Source: Armatimonadota bacterium (lineage in GTDB: Bacteria > Armatimonadota > HRBIN16). Taken from it: a stretch of 64,000 nucleotides of DNA. The stretch spans positions 124,001-188,000 of the forward strand of contig BPGU01000002.1 in the NCBI GenBank assembly GCA_026003195.1. Reading direction: 5' to 3'. The position numbers were made by a program, and so were the translations under genes. The notes beneath the pieces were generated by a model. The model ran no database searches. It was not told the origin of the DNA and worked only from the letters and a program-made list of their open reading frames with translations. Positions 14,227-15,823 of the stretch are shown one piece after another. Every line of letters starts with the position of its first letter. Position 1 is the stretch's first letter.

Positions 14227-15168
14227 CTAATCCGCCACTCTCTCTGCCGCACGGCATTGTGCGCTGCGAGAGCGCGGATTGAGAGCGACCTCCTCTGCAT
14301 CCGGCTTGAGCGCATGAGGCGTGAGCAGGCGTATCAACCGCTCTGCCCCACACCGACACTCAGGAATAGAAGCCGGGCAAAGACACTTGCCGCTGAGCCG
14401 CTGAAATGCCTGCTTGACTGCACGCGCCTCCAACGAGTGATAGGTCAGCACCACAATACGCCCCCCCGGAAGCAAACAACGTACCGCCTGTTCTATCGCC
14501 TCCTGCAAGCCATCCAGTTCACGGTTGACGGCGATGCGCAATGCCTGAAAAGTGCGTGTTGCCGGATGGATGTGTCCTCTACGGCGTCCAGCTGCTTTCG
14601 CCACCAGTGCAGCCAGCTGCTGGGTACTGAACACCGGACGGTTCTGCACGATAGCGCGAGCGATGCGCGCTGCCGCAGGCTCTTCCCCATACTCCTGGAT
14701 CAGGCGGCGCAAATCCCCCTCGCTCCACCGGTTCACAATATCTGCCGCCGTGATACCTTCCTGGCTCGAATCCATGCGCATGTCCAGCGGCGCGTCGAAT
14801 CGGAAGCTGAACCCTCGCTCCGCATTGTCCAGTTGCATCGAACTGACGCCGAGGTCGTACAGGATACCGTTTACCCCCTCGAGCCCACGCTCCCTCAACA
14901 CGTGGGGCAACTCGCGAAAGTCCGCGTGAACCAGTGTGACGCGGATGGCTCCACTGAACTGCTCCAGTCGGCGCGCCGCTATCTGCAGCGCGCTCGGGTC
15001 CCGGTCAATGCCAATGAGCCAGCCGCCGGGTACCAGGCGGGGGGCAATCTCCACCGAATGCCCACCCAGTCCCACCGTAGCATCCACAAACACTTCCCCT
15101 GGCTGCGGGCGCAGCAGCTGCAACACCTCGCGCACCATGACCGGCGTATGGCTGTGCATGGTCATCAT
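14227..15168 (-). CDS. rsmH: 16S rRNA (cytosine-1402 N4) methyltransferase
   Basis: 313 residues beginning MMTMHSHTPVMVREVLQLL, with the SAM-binding loop DATVGLGGHSVEI, the acid after beta-2 (GIDRDPSAL) and YDLGVSSMQLDNAERGFSF, hallmarks of RsmH (MraW). It methylates C1402 in the ribosomal P site. The C-terminal RSRSAQCRAAERV is also typical. It starts one base after mraZ ends. Confidence 0.96.
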   Translation of the reverse strand: MMTMHSHTPVMVREVLQLLRPQPGEVFVDATVGLGGHSVEIAPRLVPGGWLIGIDRDPSALQIAARRLEQFSGAIRVTLVHADFRELPHVLRERGLEGVNGILYDLGVSSMQLDNAERGFSFRFDAPLDMRMDSSQEGITAADIVNRWSEGDLRRLIQEYGEEPAAARIARAIVQNRPVFSTQQLAALVAKAAGRRRGHIHPATRTFQALRIAVNRELDGLQEAIEQAVRCLLPGGRIVVLTYHSLEARAVKQAFQRLSGKCLCPASIPECRCGAERLIRLLTPHALKPDAEEVALNPRSRSAQCRAAERVAD

Positions 15169-15169
15169 G

Positions 15170-15670
15170 TCATAGCTCCAGATTCACACCCAGAGTGGTT
15201 GCTGCCTCGAAGATAGAGCTGTCCTCAATCTGTGCGTTCACCTCTTTCCACCGTTGCTTGCTCCAGATTTCCAGTCGGTATGGCGCTCCGACAACGACCA
15301 CCATGCTGGGCGATTCGGAAGTAGGCAAACTGATACCGGCGTATTCGCGCAGATGCGCAGGAATCGCCAGACGCCCCTGCGAATCGATATCTACATCGTC
15401 TGCCGGAGAGATAAAAAACCGTTGCAGTCGCACCGCATTCTCGTTCATAAACGGGTAGCGTGCCAGATGCGCCCGTATCCGTTGCCAGGTGTCAGGATGG
15501 AAAACGAACAGGCATCGACTCCAGCCCTGCGTGATCACGCAGAGGCGACCAAACAGATCGCGGAAGCGCTGCGGCATGATGATACGCCCCTTATCATCTA
15601 CCGAGTGCTCCGAGTAGCCCTGCAGCTGAGCCAGCGGGGAGGCGTCGGGTCCGCTCCCCATTGCCTCCAC
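15170..15670 (-). CDS. mraZ: Transcriptional regulator MraZ
   Basis: The core contains two SpoVT/AbrB-like repeats: GYSEHSVDDKGRIIMPQRFR and DVDIDSQGRLAIPAHLREYA, as in MraZ, which binds repeats before its own operon. The start is uncertain. The longest ATG (15787) lies inside the -35 element, so it cannot be used from that promoter. ATG 15730 would give a leader of about 20 bases without a ribosome site. GTG 15670 has AGGAG six bases upstream and gives 166 residues, closest to the family length, so it is chosen; ATG 15661 is an alternative. With this start the operator repeats lie in the leader. Confidence 0.9.
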   Translation of the reverse strand: MEAMGSGPDASPLAQLQGYSEHSVDDKGRIIMPQRFRDLFGRLCVITQGWSRCLFVFHPDTWQRIRAHLARYPFMNENAVRLQRFFISPADDVDIDSQGRLAIPAHLREYAGISLPTSESPSMVVVVGAPYRLEIWSKQRWKEVNAQIEDSSIFEAATTLGVNLEL

Positions 15671-15707
15671 CAGCTGCTCCTGAAACTGCCTGTCTGGCGC
15701 CTGTTCC

Positions 15708-15745
15708 TCCACTATCCTTCCACCTACCATCCACCCAACATCCAC
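15708..15745 (-). promoter_or_regulatory. Candidate MraZ operator: four GTGGA direct repeats, 11-base period
   Basis: On the reverse strand GTGGA occurs four times with first bases at 15745, 15734, 15723 and 15712, exactly 11 bases apart. The block starts about five bases after the predicted transcription start. MraZ proteins are known to bind several short G-rich direct repeats spaced about one helical turn apart in front of their own operon, so this is the expected kind and place of operator. The exact motif for this organism is inference. Confidence 0.75.
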
Positions 15746-15757
15746 TCGGTTGGTGAT

Positions 15758-15787
15758 ATTGTAAAAAATGCGGGGCAGGCTTGTCAA
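15758..15787 (-). promoter_or_regulatory. Main promoter of the dcw cluster (mraZ promoter)
   Basis: Reverse strand: TTGACA (15787-15782), 18-base spacer, TACAAT (15763-15758). Both hexamers are near or at the sigma-70 consensus. Transcription would begin near 15751, directly before the GTGGA repeats. The AT-rich block just upstream may act as an UP element. Confidence 0.82.
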
Positions 15788-15801: not shown

Positions 15802-15823
15802 TTTTCTCAATATTTTGAGAAAA
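15802..15823. repeat. AT-rich palindrome upstream of the mraZ -35
   Basis: TTTTCTCAA, four bases (TATT), TTGAGAAAA: a perfect 9-base inverted repeat. A further TTGAG at 15794-15798 could pair with the same CTCAA. It starts 15 bases upstream of the -35 element. It may be a regulator site or an UP-like element; it has too little GC to be a convincing terminator for the upstream hydrolase gene. Confidence 0.55.

Follow-up and report, generated by a model that had tools for sequence, protein, structure and literature searches.

A predicted MraZ operator with an 11-base register in the mraZ leader of Armatimonadota

Four GTGGA repeats located just behind the mraZ promoter of an Armatimonadota bacterium very probably serve MraZ as its autoregulatory operator; this repressor is the product of the gene that opens the dcw operon. 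They lie in a window of 64,000 nucleotides (the whole stretch of DNA analysed, to which all coordinates refer) and are read on its minus strand, in the order TTGACA-N18-TACAAT-N12-GTGGATGTTGG-GTGGATGGTAG-GTGGAAGGATA-GTGGAGG. The first bases of the repeats, at 15745, 15734, 15723 and 15712, define a period of exactly 11 bases. The four units, their period and their position after TTGACA-N18-TACAAT, as described in a first-pass annotation of this DNA, were confirmed letter for letter. The elements of the locus are listed below.

15782..15787, minus strand: -35 hexamer TTGACA, followed by an 18-base spacer, in 9/9 genus members
15758..15763, minus strand: -10 hexamer TACAAT, kept with the promoter in genus members
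15741..15745, minus strand: predicted MraZ box 1, GTGGA, at about +6, invariant in nine genus members
15730..15734, minus strand: predicted MraZ box 2, GTGGA, with GTGG invariant in the genus
15719..15723, minus strand: predicted MraZ box 3, GTGGA, with GTGG invariant in the genus
15708..15712, minus strand: predicted MraZ box 4, GTGGA, in 8/9 genus members
15170..15712, minus strand: mraZ (PF02381, 105 bits; TIGR00242, 100.3 against a cut-off of 98.35), with GTG 15712 as proposed start
14227..15168, minus strand: rsmH (mraW), the first gene after mraZ (PF01795, 343 bits; TIGR00006, 308 bits)

The mraZ promoter matches the consensus at 11 of 12 positions, and one such promoter was found where shuffled sequences gave 0.2. 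A minus-strand scan of the 64 kb window for pentamers present in four copies with a constant period of 8 to 13 bases recovered the mraZ leader alone. Transcription is expected to start near 15751, and from this inferred start the four boxes would span about +6 to +43. The product of the downstream gene matches PF02381 in two stretches, corresponding to two tandem repeats, and both repeats carry the DxxxR motif (DDKGR and DSQGR) when aligned with the MraZ proteins of E. coli and other organisms. Its predicted model matches MraZ structures. The gene is followed by rsmH and, from our reading of the open reading frames, by the dcw operon.

The leader was compared within a genus set consisting of the window and eight relatives, whose MraZ proteins are 68-87% identical. 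Among these nine members, 15/16 GTGG columns are invariant versus 5/21 spacer columns (hypergeometric p = 2e-5), and the 18-base promoter spacer, the 12-13 bases between the -10 hexamer and box 1 and the 11-base register are all kept. At least three direct-repeat boxes with a GTGG core, here four, are thus found at the mraZ promoter throughout the genus. The leader comparison had been proposed as a check in the first-pass annotation, and both promoter and repeats proved to be conserved. We read the array as an MraZ operator because the GTGG columns are conserved in the nine genomes while the spacers drift, and because the same GTGG boxes precede mraZ, with period 10, in E. coli and other phyla. 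The sole GTGG exception is box 4 of one relative (L009), which reads GCGG and has an in-frame ATG directly before it. Coding was rejected as the cause of the conservation: the period breaks the reading frame, and no third-position bias is seen in the sequence that follows box 4. Part of the conservation of boxes 3 and 4 could nevertheless come from translation, through their overlap with the probable ribosome site and start codon.

Two neighbouring sequences are also conserved. A fifth GTGGAG (15665..15670, minus strand) is invariant in 9/9 genus members and lies 42 bases, or four turns, after box 4; it may be an extra box, a start codon or a Shine-Dalgarno sequence. Just upstream of the -35 hexamer, the palindrome TTTTCTCAAAATATTGAGAAAA (15802..15823, minus strand) is largely conserved in the nine members and may be the site of a second regulator.

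The locus can be compared with several characterized MraZ sites. The E. coli Pmra (MG1655, L128), which we read directly, has three boxes at 10 bases, GTGGGAAATT GTGGGGCAAA GTGGG; as at our locus, they are coding-strand GTGG boxes placed directly after the -10 hexamer and before mraZ-rsmH, but they are three at 10 bases rather than four at 11. Burkholderia cenocepacia also has four repeats downstream of the -10 hexamer, there overlapping the transcription start, and MraZ binds the fragment in gel shift assays; these repeats are 7 bases long with a 3-base spacer, and differ from ours in their period of 10 (PMC7761207). The Mollicutes consensus (AAAGTGKN3)3 has period 10 as well (PMC5282649), and in PDB 9sz7 Mycoplasma genitalium MraZ is complexed with a four-box promoter. 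Like our locus, these Mollicutes sites have a GTG core and line up three or four boxes at the mraZ promoter, where MraZ binds them in Mollicutes; they differ in their AAAGTG box and 10-base consensus, and the complex comes from another phylum. The statement of the first-pass annotation that known MraZ operators have a period of about ten bases is therefore right for E. coli, B. cenocepacia (PMC7761207) and Mollicutes (PMC5282649). Its view of a site within the leader as unusual does not hold: boxes just downstream of the -10 hexamer are standard, as in E. coli and likewise in B. cenocepacia (PMC7761207), and our array, 12-13 bases past the -10 hexamer in the nine genomes, lies near the transcription start.

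The 10-base period of previously studied sites is replaced by a period of 11 in 9/9 genus members, and the locus is therefore classed as a variant of the MraZ operator. A period of 10 is not taken as exclusive, because the MraZ of M. gallisepticum, a protein with a 10-base period at its own site, also binds in vitro and with comparable strength to the HsdC site (GTGTTAN5)2, of period 11 (PMC5282649). The HsdC site shares with our locus a GTG core at this period, but has only two repeats and serves naturally as the binding site of HsdC, an unrelated controller. With 10.5 bases to a helical turn, an 11-base step rotates the next box by +17 degrees and a 10-base step by -17 degrees, so that the fourth box stands at +51 or -51 degrees from the first. 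Spacings of 10 and 11 miss a full turn by the same amount and twist the box row in opposite senses. Since the M. gallisepticum protein binds an 11-period site (PMC5282649), the 11-base period by itself would not require a new MraZ ring.

We extended the analysis to mraZ leaders from 32 Armatimonadota families. Leaders from outside the phylum came from some 30 genomes in the same phylum as an Acidocella record, taken as Pseudomonadota, and from E. coli, with further single representatives of Bacillota, Actinomycetota, Bacteroidota, Mycoplasmatota and Pseudomonadota; other-phylum leaders were drawn from plasmid-collection records carrying dcw genes. A permissive box-chaining score was too noisy and exact GTGG chains were used instead. 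Adjacent GTGG boxes in Armatimonadota are separated by 11 bases in 69 cases and by 10 in 28, whereas the corresponding counts are 2 and 56 in the other five phyla, a sample heavy in Pseudomonadota and limited to these five. Shuffled sequences gave an expectation of 0.7 or less for each of these counts. The departure from known sites pointed out in the first-pass annotation is thereby borne out. Counted by locus, exact pairs at 11 are present at 62 Armatimonadota loci and 2 others (family f12 being counted by its flipped boxes, see below); the lineage contrast has a Fisher p of 9e-12, a value that counts related genomes and is uncorrected for descent. Of 108 Armatimonadota mraZ leaders, 30 contain a chain of at least three exact GTGG where dinucleotide shuffles predict 0.15, which excludes a chance origin. 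No exact coding-strand GTGG pair was found at 60/108 Armatimonadota mraZ loci, some of which are extra mraZ copies.

The register of 11 bases is a trait of the lineage, often pure in Armatimonadota and sometimes mixed with 10. It is pure in f1 (the genus of this locus) and in f43; f22 and the part of f13 outside a seven-box subclade mix 10 and 11, and f21 is purely 10. The longest row seen, in that f13 subclade (L095, L096, L127, L236), has up to seven GTGGA-like units, some of them degenerate, in an unbroken register of 11. Isolated 11 pairs occur in f17 and f34. The MraZ tree, from which f12 was omitted, puts most coding-strand 11 operators into a single supported clade of 45 rows (95/85); f31 and f8 lie outside this clade and are partial exceptions. 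Warm growth was rejected as an explanation for the period of 11, the thermal change of the helical repeat being far too small.

The array is specific to the mraZ promoter. Three-unit arrays elsewhere showed no excess over a reversed-pattern control in ten genomes, with 19 against 22 in the genome of this locus, and a wider regulon of 11-base arrays was rejected on these control-level counts. A search of viral contigs gave no matches. Other layouts were seen in some families. In f14 (L013, L015, L016) and f21 (L080, L257, L258), GTGG boxes lie upstream of the -35 hexamer, in addition to or in place of downstream ones, and this is a different operator layout. Some mraZ copies have no GTGG array (L021, L025, L053, L057 and L060 in f17, L094 and L099 in f35, L058 and L098 in f36); they are mostly in genomes with more than one mraZ and are possibly paralogues with another role.

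The leaders of family f12 mostly lack the coding-strand array. They carry instead TCCCA repeats (TGGGA on the opposite strand) across the -35 and -10 hexamers, at distances of 11 bases (nine cases) and 22 bases (five cases) where about 0 are expected; leaders with the 11-base period include L113, L103, L092, L277, L282, L287 and L288. They are presumably MraZ boxes placed on the other strand. Their distances are 11 and 22, and the register is therefore kept despite the changed orientation and place. The f12 leaders (e.g. L104, L110, L092, L285) also contain two hairpins (of which the upstream was identified by eye) with A-N-GGA in their loops as in CsrA/RsmE sites, and a conserved GGGCGGGGTGyyC. 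An alignment of 16 leaders folds at -16.0, compared to 0.0 in column shuffles, CsrA is present in 16/16 genomes checked, and an Rfam search of the f12 leaders gave no match. Control of mraZ by CsrA is possible in this family.

The 11 register could alternatively mark a changed MraZ assembly, in which the loop joining helix and strand in the second AbrB-like repeat became longer, changed the contact between adjacent subunits and evolved together with the operator. This loop, which the predicted model places between H118-124 and E136-140 with a modest confidence (pLDDT 66), has 15 residues in the genus of this locus and 10 in f7, f14, f22, f24, f43 and one f13 subclade, and these groups mostly have a spacing of 11. 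A loop of 8 residues goes with the 10-base families f21, f19, f25 and f28 and with nearly all non-Armatimonadota rows, Mesomycoplasma having 9. However, members of f2 (L014) and f5 (L019) combine a loop of 8 with distances of 11 or 22, the majority of f13 pairs a loop of 8 with 10-11-10, and L018 has a loop of 10 with 10-10. The tolerance of the M. gallisepticum MraZ for 11 (PMC5282649) also speaks against such a change, and only 2 independent pairs are found on supported branches, which is not significant. A causal link between loop and period, suggestive by family, is thus unsupported once descent is considered, and we regard a changed assembly as rather unlikely; that a longer second-repeat loop tends to accompany 11-base spacing is a lead only. 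In a broader scenario, which we offer tentatively and with some doubt, an Armatimonadota clade would have moved from register 10 to 11, inverting the twist of its boxes, while the MraZ loop co-evolved, and one family would have flipped its boxes and kept the 11.

Under the preferred reading as an autoregulatory operator, an MraZ oligomer would bind the row of boxes with one AbrB-like subunit per box, roughly on one face of the helix. Polymerase at a promoter covers the DNA to about +20. Bound at about +6 to +43, MraZ would shut RNA polymerase out of the mraZ promoter, because the boxes overlap this coverage, and would thereby limit the expression of its own gene and of the division and wall genes downstream. 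The analysis establishes the sequence, its conservation, the register, the lineage distribution and the identity of MraZ, whereas binding, repression and the steric mechanism are inferred; the array looks like an MraZ operator, as the first-pass annotation had proposed. Its further suggestion, that leader-bound MraZ halts polymerase in early elongation rather than at initiation, would suit boxes 3 and 4, which presumably lie beyond about +28 and outside the initiation footprint. Such a roadblock is not needed: boxes 1 and 2 are within the initiation coverage, so that a row bound from near +6 overlaps it, and the same layout is found in E. coli and B. cenocepacia (PMC7761207). We consider it improbable.

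The GTG of box 4 (15712) is most likely the mraZ start codon, and the (A)GGTGG of box 3 may double as its Shine-Dalgarno sequence. The other in-frame starts are GTG 15745, GTG 15670 and ATG 15661, the last of which is not conserved. The ATG found directly before the altered box 4 of L009 suggests that the box 4 GTG is used elsewhere. Exclusion of the longest mraZ start was a fair inference, its TTG at 15787 being the first base of the -35 hexamer. These features, with the invariant GTGGAG at 15670, might indicate that the GTGGA units are translation signals only, without MraZ binding. But no likely start is near boxes 1 and 2, an 11-base period is unable to keep the reading frame between boxes, the fixed register recurs in many families with starts elsewhere, and the flipped f12 boxes are unable to pair with 16S rRNA, which leaves this explanation very improbable.

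A G-quadruplex has been proposed at the mraZ promoter of S. aureus (PMC11796246). In our leader, such a fold controlling dcw expression would account for the regularly spaced GG tracts, but is extremely improbable: only GG is conserved per unit, with loops of about 9 bases instead of four conserved runs of at least three G with short loops, a strict 10/11 register would be meaningless for a quadruplex, and f12 has a C-rich strand instead. The S. aureus element, reported downstream of PmraZ, resembles our locus in its G-rich repeats between promoter and mraZ and was read as a DNA fold, whereas the conserved fixed register found here fits protein boxes better. It sits where an MraZ operator would be expected (PMC11796246).

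Four MraZ boxes (PDB 9sz7) and boxes just downstream of the -10 hexamer are already known. The wide 11-base register in Armatimonadota and the flipped f12 variant are new as far as can be judged from the literature searched, which included few subscription papers; nothing on the operator was apparent from the titles and abstracts retrieved for Armatimonadetes and MraZ. MraZ is among the most widespread bacterial regulators and heads the division and cell-wall genes, and current structural work on the Mycoplasma operator addresses how its ring meets successive boxes. The 11-spaced, mixed 10/11 and other-strand rows described here constitute a natural series for studying how much variation MraZ assembly tolerates and what determines its register.
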